This document shows, piece after piece, positions 1 through 50,113 of a DNA stretch of 64,000 nucleotides. This DNA is from Isoetes taiwanensis (Eukaryota > Streptophyta > Lycopodiopsida > Isoetales > Isoetaceae). A model generated the notes under the pieces. It worked only from the letters and a program-made list of their open reading frames with translations, had not been told where the DNA came from and made no database searches. The first letter of the stretch is position 1. Every line of letters begins with the position of its first letter. Where the stretch lies: positions 8,948,105 through 9,012,104 of the forward strand of contig JAJEKV010000051.1 of the NCBI GenBank assembly GCA_021234155.1, written 5' to 3'. Made by a program: the position numbers and the translations under genes.

Positions 1-218
1 TGGAGAGTGAAAAAAGTATTGCGCTTGACAAGAAGATAGAGGAGTTGGATTTTCGATTGCAAGAACACTAGAACCATTCATATTGCAAGTCTGCAAGATA
101 AAAGGAGGCCTTTATCCAACTGAAACATAAGTTTATTATTCTATTATCATTCTGTTGTTATTATTTTTAATTCATTCCTTTTTATTAATTTCTTTTATTT
201 ATTTATGATAGATTGCAG

Positions 219-794
219 GACATTTCTAGAAAATTTGGAGCTATAATAAGGAGGGCTCAAGAAGTGAGGGTTGGGATAACTGGAATTGAAGAAGTACCTT
301 TTGACATGAGACACAGTCCTATATTTTCTAATGCTAGAAATGCTTGTGTAGCTTCTATGAAAAGGTCTAGATTGACACCTGGTGTGTGCGAAAAGAGGAA
401 GAAAATAGATGAAGTGTGTTTCAGTAATGAGCTAGCTCTGCTATGTGATATTGAACATTCAATCTTTAGTAATAGAGGGCTGCAAAGGATATTCATCTAT
501 TATTGCGTGTCTTACTTTGTGATCAGAGGTAGAGATGAGCTATATAAACTTGTGGTGAGTGACTTTCAGGTCTTGGTTATTGAGGGCAAAGAGTGTCTTG
601 AATATGGTGAGCGTCTAAGTAAGAACTATGATGTTTCTACGAAGAAGTACCAGGAAGAATCTTTTAGATTATCTGTGCAATGCTTTGAAGATGACGTAGT
701 ATTGGTCTTGTGAGGCATCTTCCATTCTTATGGAGCAGATGGACAGGGATCTAATTTTGTCTTTATGCAGTGTATCAACTCTCCTAAAGGCCTT
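219..794 (+). other. Recombinase exon with box I arginine
   Basis: The exon starts after ttgcag (213-218) and ends at the donor gtaagt after position 794. It reads openly from 219 to about 713, then continues one frame over. The N-terminal part is a charged helical stretch (IFSNARNACVASMKRSR, then KRKKIDEV) as expected for the DNA-binding N-terminal half of a tyrosine recombinase. The catalytic half begins at GLQRIFIYYC, followed by the box I-like IRGRDEL. In copy 2 the acceptor reads ttgcgtgac instead of ttgcaggac, which would abolish splicing if real. Confidence 0.6.
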
Positions 795-866
795 GTAAGT
801 TTCTGATTCAGTTAAATATTAGTTTTAAATAATTTGGTTTTCTAATTTAGTGTGTTTGATTTGTAG

Positions 867-1067
867 GTGTGGTACAATAAGAAACACAGCGTTAGTGCTA
901 GGCTTTAGCTCTTGGATGAAATACATGTTGAGGACAATTGGTGTAGAAGGAAAATTCTCTGGTAAATCTGGCAGGACTTCAGTTGTTAGTCATCTTGCAC
1001 GTGCTAATGTTCCCATTGATGTTGGGATGAACATCACTGGTCATAGGGATCCTGGGTCGTATAAAAG
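867..1067 (+). other. Recombinase exon with box II arginine and GH motif
   Basis: The exon is bounded by ttgtag and the donor gtattt after AAAAG. It encodes SSWMKYMLRTIGVEGKF, then KSGRTSVVSHLARANVP and MNITGHRDPGSYK. In the family, box II is H-x-x-R and lies about 30 residues before G-H, with the nucleophilic tyrosine nine residues after the histidine. Here R, G-H and the tyrosine (first codon of the next exon) keep that spacing, while the box II histidine position is Lys. Copy 2 is scrambled at several CTG/CAG sites in this exon. Confidence 0.62.
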
Positions 1068-1778
1068 GTATTTTAGTGGTTTAATTTTTTTCTGTTAGTA
1101 GTTAGTAGTAGTTCTAATTGTTGTTTGTTGCTATTATTAATTGATTAGTTGTTTGCAGGTATGACAAAACATCTGATATTATGTCTAAAGCTGCAATGTC
1201 AATCATTGAACAGCCATTCAACGCAAACAGATCATGTAGAATGTTCAATGATGATTATAATGAAGAATTGGCTGCGTATGATGCGAGACAAAATGCTGGA
1301 AGTTTCAATGTGTTAGATTGTCATTCGGTTGTTTCTAATCATACCACAGGCAATTTTAATTTGTTAGTTTCTTTTCTAGTTTCTTTTTGTTTGTAGTTTA
1401 TCGTTGTAGAATGTTTCAGGTGATGGTGTTCAACAGGATGTTGTTTTGGATACAAATGTGAATGTGGGTAAAGATGCCGCTTTGAACTTGGCTCCAAAGA
1501 GTGTGGAGTTGGCAAGCAATAGATGTGCAAAAGAAAATCAGCATATTGTCACTGGACCTGTTGCAGAACTTGATGATCCATTTTAAGATACAGTATCTCT
1601 TGAAGAGATTGCTGGTGACAATCAACGCTTGAGGAAGGCTTTTAACTTGAGCCTTGATGTTGGCACCACTAACATTTCAGGTGGCATTTTCAACAGTTGT
1701 ATTATCCTTCCTGGTGATGGCAGGTTGAACATTGCAGAAATTGTGAAACAAATTAGTGGAAGTGGCAGTGGTACTTGA

Positions 1779-2576
1779 ACTGAAGTTTGAAAGAAGTTGA
1801 TTTTGTAAACTCTAGCTGAAACATATGGCTAGAAGTTCTAGTTTTTTGTCTGTAAACTGTGGCTAGAAGTATTAGTTTGGGTGTAAACCTTTTTTTGATT
1901 TGATTCAAAGCTGAATACAAAAGCTTTCACTGTAATGGTAATGTTCTTACCTTGGATTTTACTGTTTTTACTAATGTGTAATATTTTAACTGTGCAAATC
2001 TAACCTTTTTACCCTATATTCAGAGTTTGTTACTCTATATTCTACAATGATTTTTAGTGTGCATGGTTAAAAAAAATGTAGACTTCATAAATATTTGATG
2101 ACAATGACAACTTTAGGCAACTTTCAGGGAAAAGAAAAGTGTGCCACATGTAAACCCTATTCGATATAGGGGCAGAATTACACATAAGCAACATTCACAT
2201 CAAAATATATCATTCTGTCTCAATTTTAACGTCCCAAAGACCTAGAAATTCATATTGGTCATTGAAAGAGATTAAAAGAACCTTATTGGCCTCCATAATA
2301 CTTTTGCTAAAAATTATAGAATATTTACATACCTATAGATAATCTTCCTCCTATTTATTATTCATTGTTGGAACCTTTCAGCTTAATGAGTGGTCTCAAC
2401 AATCATACTTTTGCAATCAAATATACTTTTGGGGTACCCCTTATGGCCCTTGCCGTATACTTTTTCTCGAGGCATATGCGAACAAATAGGCCAAATCCAA
2501 CTCGCACTTGAATGAGGCAAAACCATGAGGCAAAACTTTTGCAGCAAGATAAACCCAATCTGCAGATCAGCAAGTG
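1779..2576. other. Intergenic gap between convergent genes, copy 1
   Basis: This AT-rich stretch lies between the 3' ends of the recombinase gene and the CTF4 homologue. It should hold both 3' untranslated regions. I see no open reading frame of note, no clear repeat and no structured RNA. Confidence 0.6.
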
Positions 2577-5500
2577 CTAATTGCTGCCCTTTTGAATCTT
2601 CTTCTTTGAAGAGCTTAATGTATTGTTGGTGGTGTCATTTTGCATTCTTTTAAGCGAATCTAGAAGGGGAACCTTTGAGGCGGTGCCATTACTCTGTGGC
2701 GCTGACTTGGCGAAAGGGTTGCTTGTTTTGGCAAATGGATTGCTTGCCTTTGTTATATTTGTTGCATTTGTCAACTTTTCTGATTTCTGGACGTCGCCAT
2801 CCACAGGTTGTAAACTATCATGTTCCTTTGTTGGGCGCAATGTGCATCTTGGAGCTTCCTTGTTATTGACTTGCATTGCTGCGGTAGATTCATGAGCAGC
2901 CCTTGTCTCTGCAGGCACTCTATGCATCTCTTCTGAGGTGCTTTGTGGTGATGGTTCTGTCAAAGGATTGGCCCTAAGTTCCTTATCCATGCCAGACCAT
3001 CTTGGTGCTGCATTTGCACTCTGTATACTGTTCAAGACAACTTCGGAATTTCTCTGCTGCATCCTTGCCTGAAAAGATTCACAAGCAGTTATAGACCAGG
3101 AATGGATACAGCTGAAAAATCAGATGAACTGTATCTGAAGTAATGTCTTCATGATTCACCTCAAGGACTCCGTTGAGACGTTCAGCCAACACTGGAAGAC
3201 GCATTGCATTGACAAGCCTAATAGCACCTTCTAATGATTTATGAAGTGATAGCGATGTCGCTAGCTCCATTGCTCTCATAAGTTTATCTCCTGCAAACAA
3301 AATTAAAGTTCGTAAAAAGGGCATGGATTCAAAGACATGTTAAAGCTAAACCTTTGCATGCTACTGCAATAAGGCGTAAAAGGTCACGGTCAAGCTCAGC
3401 CTTCACTTCCAAAACTCTATCATCTGCTTTATCAACTTCTTGCCCTTCAGCAGCAGCCTCATCGGCCTTAGCCTGCGCCTGAAAAGGGAAAAGCTAAGGA
3501 TGAGATACTGTTTCTGGGTAACATGTGCCAACTTAAACTCTAATTTTGAAACTTACTTGAGCTAGAACCATAGCATTGCGAAGTGAGCCACTCTCTAAGT
3601 CATCTGCTCCTAAGTCAGAATGTAGTGAAGGCAAAGCCATATTGATAATACTTAAGACAGGTCTTGGAAAAGCCTGATCAGTCCATATGAAAATTAAATA
3701 CTTATAGATGCAACTTAAATAAAAAACAGCTTCACTACCTGTGGTTCAACTTCTGGGTATTTGCATATCACACAGAATATCTGGTTGTCACTCAGTCCCA
3801 CCATCCAATAATTTTCGCTTGAATCTTTCTTCTCTTTCTCGGCACTGACAATGACATTATATCAAATTGCCAACCTCAAGCATGCCCAGAACATGATTAA
3901 TTAAGAATGTACCTGAAAACTGGTATCCAGCATCCATCAAAATCGGGACAGTACATCCGAAGCAATCCCTGGTAAGATTACAAGGTCATCGTACATGAAT
4001 CCAACAAATAGATAGTTTTTTTCCGTGAACATGAGATAACCACTTTATCCAACAAATGGTTAGTTTTTTGCCTTGACTCTTGAGCAAGGAGAAGCATAAT
4101 ACCTGGGAGTCATAAGCCGCTAAAAATCCAGATTCGCTGAAACCAACCCAAGAGAGCCTGGCACCAGGACTAAGAGGAAGGCGGCCTCTTAGCTGACATT
4201 TTTTTTCTGGGACATTTAGAATCATGAAATCTATGACCTGGATCAAATCTCTTAACAGATTAGAAACTCTCAAAAAATAAGCTTAATATTGTAGACAAGC
4301 ATAACCATGAAAAGTCTACCTGGCCCCATTTATAAATGGAATAGATGCATGGAAAACTAAGCGCAAGCGAATGTAAGTGTCAGTCATTGACCACGATAGG
4401 ACCAGGAAGTGACATTACAAACTTCTGCAAGAAAGATGCAAGATGAGCATCTTAAGATAATCCTCCCTGATATATATGTAATTGATGCATACTTTCATCT
4501 TATAACCAGTAAGATATTAACCTGCAATCCACCTTCGGAAAATAAGCGGAGCAGATTATGACTTGTAGACACGGCTGACCAACCAACACCAATCGCAACA
4601 GCTTGAGCCTCCTCACCAATAGGAAGGCGCATCGACCACTGCATAAAATCAAGTTACATATTCCAATATTATCAATTTAGATACTCCATGAAAAACTCAA
4701 AAACGTTACTCCGAACCTCGCTATTTGAGGCCCAAGCATTGAAAGGACGATACATCAGAGTACTGGGGTTCTTCTCCCCCTTCTGTGGACTTGCTAATAT
4801 GCATCCTTTCTCATTTAGAGCCCCCATTGTAAAACCAAAAAAATCTGTCATTGCTGGGACTCGCACACCTCTACCTATATCATGAAATTCGACCTGCCAA
4901 GTTAAATGTCTTTATAAGTTGACAATGGTTTCAATTTGTTCAAGCCATAATCAATGATGCTGAGCTTACTTCTACATGAAAATAGCCATCATTCTCAGTG
5001 CTGCTTATGCTACCGAGAAGATTATATGCAAGGAACCGACGCTTCCCACTAACTTGTGCTGTACAGCCAGCCTGGAAAGGTTTCTGCAACATTGGGAGCT
5101 TTTGCATAGATGATATCTGATTTGTATCATATGAATCAATGTCCTGTCTCAAATTCTTCTGGCTTCGCTCTAAATCTTTTGGCCGGGAAGGGTATTTATG
5201 TCTCCTCTTCAAAAGCTTCTTGCCCCTATTTGCAGCATCTATGTCTGCATCATTACTTTCAGACGCAGTGTCTTGACTTCCCAATGCAATTGAAACACCA
5301 ATTTCATCTGATGCCTCATCGTCGCTGAACTTCAAAAGTTCCTCCCTATCCACTATATTAACAGTAGCATTCAAAAGTGCAGATGGTGATGTCATATGTG
5401 ATGGGATGGCAGACTCCCACACAGAAAATCTTCCTTCAACATCAATTATTGCCACCGCATTTCCCTTTGGCTTCCAAGCTAAACTACAGATTGGAGAGTC

Positions 5501-6524
5501 AAATTTCAAACGATCCAGGTCTTGTTTCTTCTCTGTATCCCAGAGCAACACCTGCCGGTCCTCTGCTGAAGTTGCAATATACTTCCCATTGGGTGACCAT
5601 GCAAGAAAACTGACTGGGCTGGTGTGTCCTCCTTTTAAACTGTAAACCTTCTCCCCAGTATCTCTGTCGAGCATAACAACATCACTCTTAGACCCAGGTG
5701 CAGCAAGCATATTACCTTCCGGTTCCCATGCTATGTGATTCTTGCATGTAGACTTCACATCTATGCGTGGTGCACAATTCACAAGAGTGTGTAGCATTTT
5801 CCCTGATGCTATAAGCCAAAAGATAACAGTTCCATCTGTGTCAACTGATGCAAGATATTCATTTTTTGGGTCAAGGGCCATGCTCATTACAGGTGTTGCA
5901 TGGCCTTTTAAAACCTTCACAATTGAATTATCAATGGTGCTAACCAGTCTTATTCCAGCATCATCACCAGCAGCAGCGAGAATTCCACCAGTTACGCTAA
6001 AAGCAATTGATCTGATTGGTAAAGTAAACCTGGTAACAGTGCTTTGAAATTCCCCGCCTAGGAAATGGAACCTTTGTTAAATTCCAATACCCGAAAATTA
6101 TTAATCTACCCACATTGTAATTTTAGGTAATATGTACAAAGAGGCTTTAAAGCAAGCAATAGATGGACAGTAGAAGCAGCCAGGTGCTAAGCATCTAACA
6201 CTACGGGAATAAGATCTAAAAATGATTTCAAAACAGAGTAGGAAGAAGAGATGCAAGGAAACGTACCAGGGTAGTCATAAAATTTGACAGAATGATCGAT
6301 AGAACCGGTAGCAAGCAAAGTACCGAGAGGTGAGACTGCAAGGGTGGTTATAGGTCCGGTGTGAGAAGACGAAGATGCTACGACGGCAGAGGCAACAGAA
6401 GGGTCCCAAGTATGGATTAGCATGCGACAATCTGCACCCCGGTGATCAAATGGCGACCTACGGTGTCCCACGCTATACAGCACAGCCCTTCGCCATGTCC
6501 ATCCCGCAGCTGAAGCCGTCCCAT
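2577..6524 (-). CDS. EOL1-like: CTF4/AND-1/WDHD1 homologue (EOL1-like), copy 1
   Basis: This is the replisome adaptor that links the CMG helicase to DNA polymerase alpha; in Arabidopsis the homologue is EOL1. Twelve exons with GT-AG borders can be drawn: 6524-6267, about 6058-4970, 4893-4717, 4638-4522, about 4425-4322, 4237-4103, 3968-3913, 3844-3739, 3673-3557, 3478-3352, 3290-3160 and 3068-2577, giving about 970 residues. WD40 blades show as HTGPITTLAVSP, HATPVMSMALDP and HTSPVSFLAWSP. The middle SepB-type domain includes SLPGPIV, read in copy 2. The C-terminus has two NPFAK repeats and a basic tail. The start ATG at 6524 is the first after an in-frame TAG three codons upstream of the nearest TTG. 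Exon 1 has a C4 run at 6437-6440 where copy 2 has C5, which shifts the frame. Exon 5 is also garbled relative to copy 2. Both look like sequence errors. Confidence 0.92.
2700..2760 (-). other. Tandem NPFAK motif in CTF4 C-terminus
   Basis: The last exon encodes two back-to-back copies of a SNPFAK-type motif followed by a serine- and lysine-rich tail. Short NPF/A-type repeats near the C-terminus are a recognisable feature of plant and animal AND-1 proteins. The motif is identical in copy 2. No HMG box like that of the vertebrate protein is evident. Confidence 0.6.
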
Positions 6525-48133: not shown

Positions 48134-50113
48134 AGACTATATCAAGGATATTGAGAATATGCCAGGAATTTTTTTACCTGATGATAGTAACAAAGAAAAT
48201 AATCCTGGAATCAGTAATAAAGCTCGAAAATCTGATAAGGAGGTAGCGGTTCTTGATTTAAATGAAGCATTAGTGAATGAAGTGAGGTCTCACCGAGGAA
48301 ATTTGATAAAATCGAAAGGGCCGTAATTAGATTTGATCTGGGAGAGTGAAAAGTATTGCGCTTTGACAAGAAGATAGAGGAGTTGGATTTTCGATTGCAA
48401 GAACACTAGAACCATTCATATTGCAAGTCTGCAAGATAAAAGGAGGCCTTTATCCAACTGAAACATAAGTTTATTATTCTATTATCATTCTGTTGTTATT
48501 ATTTTTAATTCATTCCTTTTTATTAATTTCTTTTATTTATTTATGATAGATTGCGTGACATTTCTAGAAAATTTGAGCTATAATAAGGAGGGCTCAAGAA
48601 GTGAGGGTTGGGATAACTGAATTGAAGAAGTACCTTTTGACATGAGACACAAATTCTATATTTTCTAATGCTAGAAATGCTTGTGTAGCTTCTATGAAAA
48701 GGTCTAGATTGACACCGTGTGTGCGAAAAAGAGGAAGAAAATAGATGAAGTGTGTTTCAGTAATGAGCTAGCTCTGCTATGTGATATTGAACATTCAATC
48801 TTTAGTAATAGAGGGCTGCAAAGGATATTCATCTATTATTGCGTCTTACTTTGTGATCGAGGTAGAGATGAGCTATATAAACTTGTGGTGAGTGACTTTC
48901 AGGTCTTGGTTATTGAGGGCAAAGAGTGTCTTGAATATGGTGAGCGTATAAGTAAGAACTATGATGTTTCTACTTAAGAAGTACCGTGAAGAATCTTTTA
49001 GATTATCTCAGGCAATGCTTTGAAGATGACGAGTATTGGTCTTGTGAGGCATCTTCCATTCTTATGGAGCAGATGGACAGGGATCTAATTTTGTCTTTAT
49101 GCAGTGTATCAACTCTCCTAAAGGCCTTGTAAGTTTCTGATTCAGTTAAATATTAGTTTTAAATAATTTGGTTTTCTAATTTAGTGTGTTTGATTTGTAG
49201 GTGGTGGTACAATAAGAAACACAAATAAGTAGTGCTAGGCTTTAGCTCTTGGATGAAATACATGTTGAGGACAATTGGTGTAGAAGGAAAATTCTCCGTA
49301 ACCGGGCAGACTTCAAAAAGTTAGTCATCTTGCATCGCAGCACGTTCCCATTGATGTTGGGATGAACATCACCGGGTCATAGGGATCCCGGTCGTATAAA
49401 AGGTATTTTAGTGGTTTAATTTTTTTCTGTTAGTAGTTAGTAGTAGTTCTAATTGTTGTTTGTTGCTATTATTAATTGATTAGTTGTTTGCAGGTATGAC
49501 AAAACATCTGATATTATGTCTAAAGCTGCAATGTCAATCATTGAACAGCCATTCAACGCAAACAGATCATGTAGAATGTTCAATGATGATTATAATGAAG
49601 AATTGGCTGCGTATGATGCGAGACAAAATGCTGGAAGTTTCAATGTGTTAGATTGTCATTCGGTTGTTTCTAATCATACCACGTGCAATTTTAATTTGTT
49701 AGTTTCTTTTCTAGTTTCTTTTTGTTTGTAGTTTATCGTTGTAGAATGTTTCAGGTGATGGTGTTCAACAGGATGTTGTTTTGGATACAAATGTGAATGT
49801 GGGTAAAGATGCCGCTTTGAACTTGGCTCCAAAGAGTGTGGAGTTGGCAAGCAATAGATGTGCAAAAGAAAATCAGCATATTGTCACTGGACCTGTTGCA
49901 GAACTTGATGATCCATTTTAAGATACAGTATCTCTTGAAGAGATTGCTGGTGACAATCAACGCTTGAGGAAGGCTTTTAACTTGAGCCTTGATGTTGGCA
50001 CCACTAACATTTCAGGTGGCATTTTCAACAGTTGTATTATCCTTCCTGGTGATGGCAGGTTGAACATTGCAGAAATTGTGAAACAAATTAGTGGAAGTGG
50101 CAGTGGTACTTGA
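48134..50113 (+). pseudogene. Crypton/DUF3504-like tyrosine recombinase, copy 2
   Basis: This is the same gene as at 1-1778 with about 200 more bases at the left. The added part encodes an acidic and basic stretch (DYIKDIENMPGIFLPDDSNK, then ARKSDKEVAVLDLNEALVN) up to a stop near 48324. The box I segment is intact in wording but loses one residue pair (YYCVLLCDRGRDELYKL). Box II and GH are scrambled at CTG/CAG sites (about 49296-49395). The TAA after DDPF is shared with copy 1. The splice acceptor before the box I exon reads ttgcgtgac. The last exon is identical to copy 1. Confidence 0.6.

Follow-up and report, generated by a model that had tools for sequence, protein, structure and literature searches.

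A dead copy of a probable Crypton-like tyrosine recombinase transposon, with a hairpin at its left end, in the quillwort Isoetes taiwanensis

The window analysed here (64,000 nucleotides of Isoetes taiwanensis; contig JAJEKV010000051.1, positions 8,948,105 to 9,012,104) opens inside a degraded copy of a tyrosine recombinase (YR) element, hereafter copy B, the parts of which are collected in Table 1 together with its surroundings. The peptide motifs quoted for this stretch in the preliminary description were all recovered on the + strand of window 1-1778 and in the order given there, and the plant-like genome that it envisaged agrees with the host (a quillwort). The element itself extends beyond the coordinates first assigned to it, as its 5' end lies ~1.7 kb upstream of the window. 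That the motifs belong to a working gene was not borne out: exon 2 carries an in-frame TGA (window 711-713), exon 3 a frameshift close to its start and exon 5 an in-frame TAA (window 1584-1586), and upstream of the window exon 1 is interrupted by an insertion of 584 bp (TG...CA, L003 7207-7790) that has AAGAC at either side and looks like a solo LTR; copy B is thus a dead copy. The proposed GT-AG introns stand in part, since the exon boundaries of the relatives agree with them (one falling directly before the catalytic Tyr codon), whereas the donor of intron 1 in copy B is AT and not GT (our own reading against the relatives). Exon 2 is 77% identical to exon 2 of the relative L029 over window 213-791 (tblastn) and was also matched at window 435-788 in the genome search with an exon-sized protein query from copy A; exon 4 is 71% identical to L029 (match at window 1157-1360), and window 829-1095 on its own matches Phage_integrase (PF00589) at an E-value of 0.0023, below the curated cut-off.

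Directly upstream of copy B, and head to tail with it, lies a degraded copy of the same superfamily (copy A), the two meeting at the junction of CCTTTACG and TATAAGGGAAA (L003 ~6270-6290); a GATA tetranucleotide array of ~190 bases (L003 ~1490-1684) is found upstream of copy A. On the other side, the adjoining gene encodes a homologue of Ctf4/Mcl1, by which the locus looks like nuclear chromosomal DNA.

Table 1. Features of copy B and its surroundings (window positions unless a C1058 coordinate is given)
Feature	Position	Strand	Remarks
Copy B, upstream part	C1058:8946381 to 8948104		5' hairpin, 5' inverted repeat and most of split exon 1
Copy B, part in window	1..2199	+	3' end ~2199 by eye, from similarity to L029
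Exon 1, last part	1..126	+	Frame broken; open frame ends at L003 8039 = window 39
Exon 2, YR pseudogene	212..794	+	Arg box IRGRDEL, Lys box LEYGERLSKN; ends by eye, splice signals
Exon 3	867..1067	+	WYNKKH; KSGRTSVVSHLA; TGHRDPGSYKR; ends by eye, splice signals
Exon 4	1159..1350	+	Starts with last base of Arg codon and catalytic Tyr codon (RYDK); 3' end uncertain
Exon 5	1420..1778	+	C-terminal FNSCIILPG segment; 5' end by eye; match 1518-1748
Copy B, 3' inverted repeat	2171-2184		14-bp match
Ctf4/Mcl1 homologue (DNA polymerase alpha-binding), next gene	2580-4282	-	Mcl1_mid E 4.5e-9, Ctf4_C E 2.9e-6
Second YR exon-2 fragment, same superfamily	48771..49058 (C1058:8996875-8997162)	+	More degraded: one TGA, one TAG, one TAA

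A search of the genome (1,658,258,908 bases, i.e. 1.66 Gb, in 1110 sequences) placed copy B within a repeated family: each of two exon-sized protein queries from copy A gave at least 150 YR exon matches (152 and 150), counts that are lower bounds, with 150 candidates scored of 1078 and of 900, respectively. Twenty copies were examined with 5-kb context, and the length of the element was found to be 3.0-3.4 kb. Three pairs of copies (L022/L023, L028/L029 and L034/L038) match at 98%, 94% and 92%, respectively, along 3.0-3.4 kb, beyond which the similarity ends abruptly, and thus behave as independent insertions; the 98% identity of L022 and L023 over 3.4 kb, between different flanks, indicates that the movement was recent. 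L022 possesses a complete five-exon frame (621 residues as joined, start codon uncertain), in L023 exon 1 is broken and exon 5 contains a stop, and the exon pieces matched in L030, L033, L034, L035, L037 and L039 (pieces only) contain no stop. No relatives were recovered from the viral contigs and the bacterial and archaeal genome contigs searched.

Eight spliced family members were aligned, two further peptides (L027, with one stop, and L039) being left out. The Arg of IRG, the Lys of SKN, the K-x-x-R of KSGR and the Tyr of RYDK are invariant (8/8); in the G-H-R motif five members have His before the Arg and three have Gln. We take these alignment positions to be the YR catalytic ones, the His of the G-H-R motif presumably being the usual YR His/Trp. 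In the subfamily of L034, L035 and L037, Gln replaces His/Trp and exons 2 and 3 are not separated by an intron. In the Pfam search (E up to 0.1) Phage_integrase matched four of the eight members (best E 3.1e-5) and DUF3504 three (best E 7.4e-4, below the curated cut-off), while two unrelated families matched one member each (E 0.046 and 0.097); among the PHROG families, integrase 1 matched 5/8 (best 4.3e-6), integrase 216 2/8 and an unnamed family 1/8. NCBIfam gave no match for the eight members at E 0.1, and hence none to an IntI-type integrase, the PDB sequences gave no YR match with one spliced protein or with the eight-row alignment, and L035 alone matched no YR family in the profile search of spliced proteins (scores weak overall). 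By hhalign, Cre aligned weakly over the region from box II (K/H-x-x-R) to the Tyr (P 0.0044), and XerD and lambda Int yielded nothing useful. Taken together, the integrase matches and the mostly invariant catalytic positions uphold, at weak profile scores, the tyrosine recombinase identity proposed earlier. Its further assignment to the DUF3504/Crypton type is supported for the enzyme, which is probably of this type on the strength of weak DUF3504 matches in 3/8 members, whereas two terminus features described for Cryptons (see below) are absent from the element.

Six between-subfamily comparisons gave dN values of 0.15-0.25, with NG86 dS values of 1.9, 2.0 and 4.8 in three of them and no estimate in the other three; within subfamilies, dN was lower than dS in 11/11 comparisons by NG86 and in 10/11 by YN00 (the L028/L029 pair lying near 1). 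At the level of codon comparison, these values show the YR gene to be under purifying selection across subfamilies. RT, DDE and Rep domains were sought in 10 of the 26 listed frames of the complete element L022 and none was found; likewise, the scanned L022 frames, YR exons included, contained neither RT nor RNase H.

In gene orientation the element starts with TATAAGGG or GATAAGGG (with variants such as TATACAGG) and ends in CTTTACG (CTTTCCG in L033, ATTTACG in L035). An inverted repeat of the right end is present in 12/15 elements (unmatched in L024, L026 and L027), its left partner lying inside a hairpin and being therefore subterminal on the left side. For ten elements, flanks of 100 + 100 bases were joined and searched against the whole genome, and junction-spanning sequences were found for eight of them (L022, L023, L025, L028, L029, L033, L035 and L038), L034 and L037 having no empty site among the matches listed (40 of 3128 candidates scored). 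These empty sites are not alleles but related repeats at other genomic positions (84-100% identical). The left and right flanks meet at a G in 16/16 empty stretches (two Gs in L047), and the switch between target and element falls at the same G on both sides in all eight elements, with 0-3 further bases common by chance. Insertion thus adds the element, with one G held in common, without visible deletion or longer duplication. The target reads TTnYG over 54 left ends (T 45/54 at -4, T 47/54 at -3, pyrimidine 54/54 at -1), all of which were selected for the G and the following ATA, so that the sequence was free to vary at the two T positions and the pyrimidine position only; this target resembles the right end of the element (TTTACG). 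The exact joined-end pattern occurs seven times genome-wide versus five in the reversed control (no clear enrichment), and a preference for tandem insertion is therefore not claimed here.

The hairpin (~105 nt, stem ~29 bp) adjoins the left crossover on its inner side. As single-stranded DNA, that of L022 folds at -54.7 kcal/mol (z -17.4; opposite strand -52.2, z -15.1), and the hairpins of copy A and of copy B (the latter decayed) reach z-scores of -13.5 and -5.1, respectively. Across seven sequences 93.6% of the cells pair and 29/47 pairs are changed on both sides, a level of pairing that was reached by 0/500 shuffles (slid versions 33-51% paired). A covariance model built from seven of these hairpins found the hairpin on the gene strand in 15/21 loci, and it matches both strands; among the 6/21 loci with no hairpin match, L020 and L030 look 5'-truncated (our own reading). 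The decayed hairpin of copy B was matched at L003 6277-6370 with 33.7 bits, and an unrelated palindrome in L022 scores above it (40.9 bits), so that low covariance-model scores alone prove little. The left base reads G[TG]ATA in 15/16 covariance-model hairpins (exception L036; our own reading). A search of L022, L028, L034, L036 and L003 against Rfam at gathering thresholds gave no match, and the hairpin therefore belongs to no catalogued RNA family. Other very long GC-rich palindromes, of unrelated sequence, lie outside the element at L022 364-509 and 4790-4939.

The apex motif of the hairpin, GCCGACGCN(6-11)GCGGAGGC, occurs 373 times genome-wide (184 + 189) and not once in the reversed control; of these matches 100 were listed, with 60 taken as short stretches and six as long. 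Of the 60 hairpins, 41 have GA/GA as their outer 2x2 internal loop, and the outer arms of the 60 pair at 1209/1252 positions, under an arm-length rule that stops at two mismatches and favours pairing. In the 29 of these 60 that have a GA/GA loop and a stem of at least 29 bp, a hairpin's own arms are 98.1% paired (the stopping rule favouring pairing here too) versus 61.4% for arms swapped between the same 29 hairpins, and the mean identity of their 5' arms is only 51%. The shape, loops and base of the hairpin are kept while the sequence of the stem is largely free and differs between subfamilies, which points to recognition of the folded form. Arm-to-arm copying also contributes to the conserved palindromy, as judged from L027, in which the hairpin arms are exact copies of each other. 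Between L022 and L023 a local scramble is seen within the hairpin despite 98% identity over 3.4 kb, and the hairpin hence seems to change faster than the rest of the element. Partial direct copies of hairpin-arm sequence are present in the 3' untranslated region of L022 (original coordinates ~1170-1237) and may possibly serve as donors for new arms.

Six hairpin loci were picked for having no listed YR match nearby, and none of them encodes a YR (tblastn, E 1e-3, 4.5 kb each). Four of these (L056, L057, L058 and L060) are elements of ~345-390 bp in which the hairpin and an inverted repeat are accompanied by a TTTACG end; L059 has a right end ~1.4 kb from the hairpin, its left end not being defined, and L061 has no right end. 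An inverted-repeat match near the right end is found in 5/6 loci (weak in L059 and L060, E 0.016). The short elements keep the hairpin, the right end and little else, as would be expected if the enzyme needs these sites. A hairpin serving only the transcript was rejected as a candidate, given that the short gene-less elements retain it.

We consider it probable that the window holds a dead copy from a family of YR-only, Crypton-like DNA transposons, in which the YR would join the element ends and insert the element after TTnYG, with the hairpin as a required cis site. Under the mechanism that we propose, the YR from autonomous copies would recognise both element ends (the join would read CCTTTACG^TATAAGGG) and would recombine the joined ends with target sites like its own right end (TTnYG^), by which the element would be inserted precisely, with one G common to element and target. 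The ~105-nt hairpin, the base of which adjoins the left crossover, would be the required cis-acting site, and the YR would recombine the DNA at this base, perhaps in a folded, single-stranded state like that of integron attC sites. We infer that the YR is the mover, that a circle is the intermediate and that the hairpin is read in its folded state (extruded or single-stranded) rather than as duplex.

Integron attC sites carry a GTTRRRY core and are free in the sequence of their stem. In integrons the site forms a hairpin with variable parts and some unpaired bases, the crossover being located at a basal G; a single strand in this folded state takes part in the exchange, and the junction is resolved by replication (PMC8946536). 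The quillwort element resembles the attC/IntI system in its YR, and its predicted hairpin, with unpaired bases and the crossover at the base, would agree with that system if folded in the cell; it is unlike it in being a eukaryotic autonomous transposon with the hairpin at one element end and no cassette array; furthermore, attC recombines from the bottom strand, whereas the quillwort hairpin model matches both strands. We tentatively put forward, as a possible if somewhat doubtful course of events, an integration resembling that of integron cassettes, in which the YR would act on a folded single strand and cut at the hairpin base beside a G, one strand would be exchanged, and the shape of the hairpin rather than its sequence would constitute the site. 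One-strand exchange of a folded hairpin would explain the presence of the hairpin at the crossover.

Ordinary duplex YR transposition with a 6-8 bp overlap, in which the hairpin would be accessory (replication, transcription, silencing) or an arm-copied palindrome, is possible and somewhat doubtful. By our own reading, the joined ends form an inverted-arm core (CCCTTT-ACGTAT-AAGGG) such as duplex YRs need, and the exact-copy arms of L027 show that arm copying happens. However, some mixed junctions would then be expected from a YR that acts on mismatched duplex partners across an overlap of 6-8 bp, and the eight elements with empty sites all switch at the same G on both sides, but for the 0-3 chance bases. 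Moreover, arm copying would erase the GA/GA loops, which persist in 41/60 hairpins, and the hairpin of the short elements without a gene makes a role confined to the transcript unlikely.

The remaining explanations bring in another kind of element or a host function. A second type of Helitron has been described that inserts upstream of a T and carries hairpins together with short asymmetric inverted repeats at its termini (PMC8969392), and the quillwort element has in common with it the hairpin, the asymmetric inverted repeats and the absence of target duplication; that a rolling-circle element of this type acquired a YR gene is nevertheless improbable, since Helitrons move by a rolling-circle Rep and no Rep/helicase domain was found in 10 of the 26 listed L022 frames, the YR is under purifying selection across subfamilies and insertion follows TTnYG. 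Eukaryotic YRs occur also in DIRS, Ngaro and VIPER elements (PMC3212892), but the sharp ends of the complete 3.4-kb L022, the lack of RT/RNase H in its scanned frames and the introns retained by the genes render a YR retrotransposon (DIRS/Ngaro type) reduced to its YR parts highly improbable. The introns and the long-term purifying selection would suit a domesticated, Crypton-derived host gene, as the preliminary description had also envisaged; this too we regard as very hard to sustain against at least 150 repeats with transposon ends and empty sites and a disrupted window copy, which speak instead for a repeated transposon.

The Crypton-like YR transposon that we favour shares with Cryptons (CryptonF/S/A/I) the character of a YR-only DNA element of a few kb with a DUF3504-related YR, non-autonomous derivatives and many degraded copies; it encodes a YR with the catalytic residues (the His/Trp position being Gln in 3/8) and, in the 10 scanned frames and the YR exons of the one complete element, no reverse transcriptase or DDE transposase. 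Cryptons are described as having no terminal inverted repeats, and the fungal ones as having 4- or 6-bp direct repeats (PMC3212892), whereas the quillwort element has inverted repeats near both ends and a long folded left end, and shares one G at integration as against the 4-6 bp direct repeats of the fungal groups. In function the element works in the manner of a Crypton, but its termini differ from the Crypton description, and we therefore file it as Crypton-like and not in a named Crypton group. The host table of the Crypton survey (Kojima and Jurka 2011) comprises fungi, animals, oomycetes and a diatom and no land plant, a high copy number is already known from medaka (>2,700 copies), and the integration mechanism of Cryptons is there based on analogy with prokaryotic YR elements (PMC3212892). 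Literature searches for Crypton in Isoetes, land plants and Selaginella returned no description of such an element, and catalogued families may exist. The family would represent an abundant YR DNA transposon in the genome of a land plant, and its hairpin predicts structure-specific recombination, as in integrons. As one genome offers a complete copy and short non-autonomous derivatives as well as recent insertions, pre-insertion sites and hundreds of hairpins, the ends, the target rule and the cis-requirements can be read directly.

Besides this family, a six-frame search revealed a second, DUF3504-positive YR family above the Pfam cut-off (L001, C31:90502; L002, C606:42685), with no hairpin match in its 3.5-kb loci. 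Both families have YR/DUF3504-type recombinase genes, and L001 and L002 differ from the window's family in their N-terminus.
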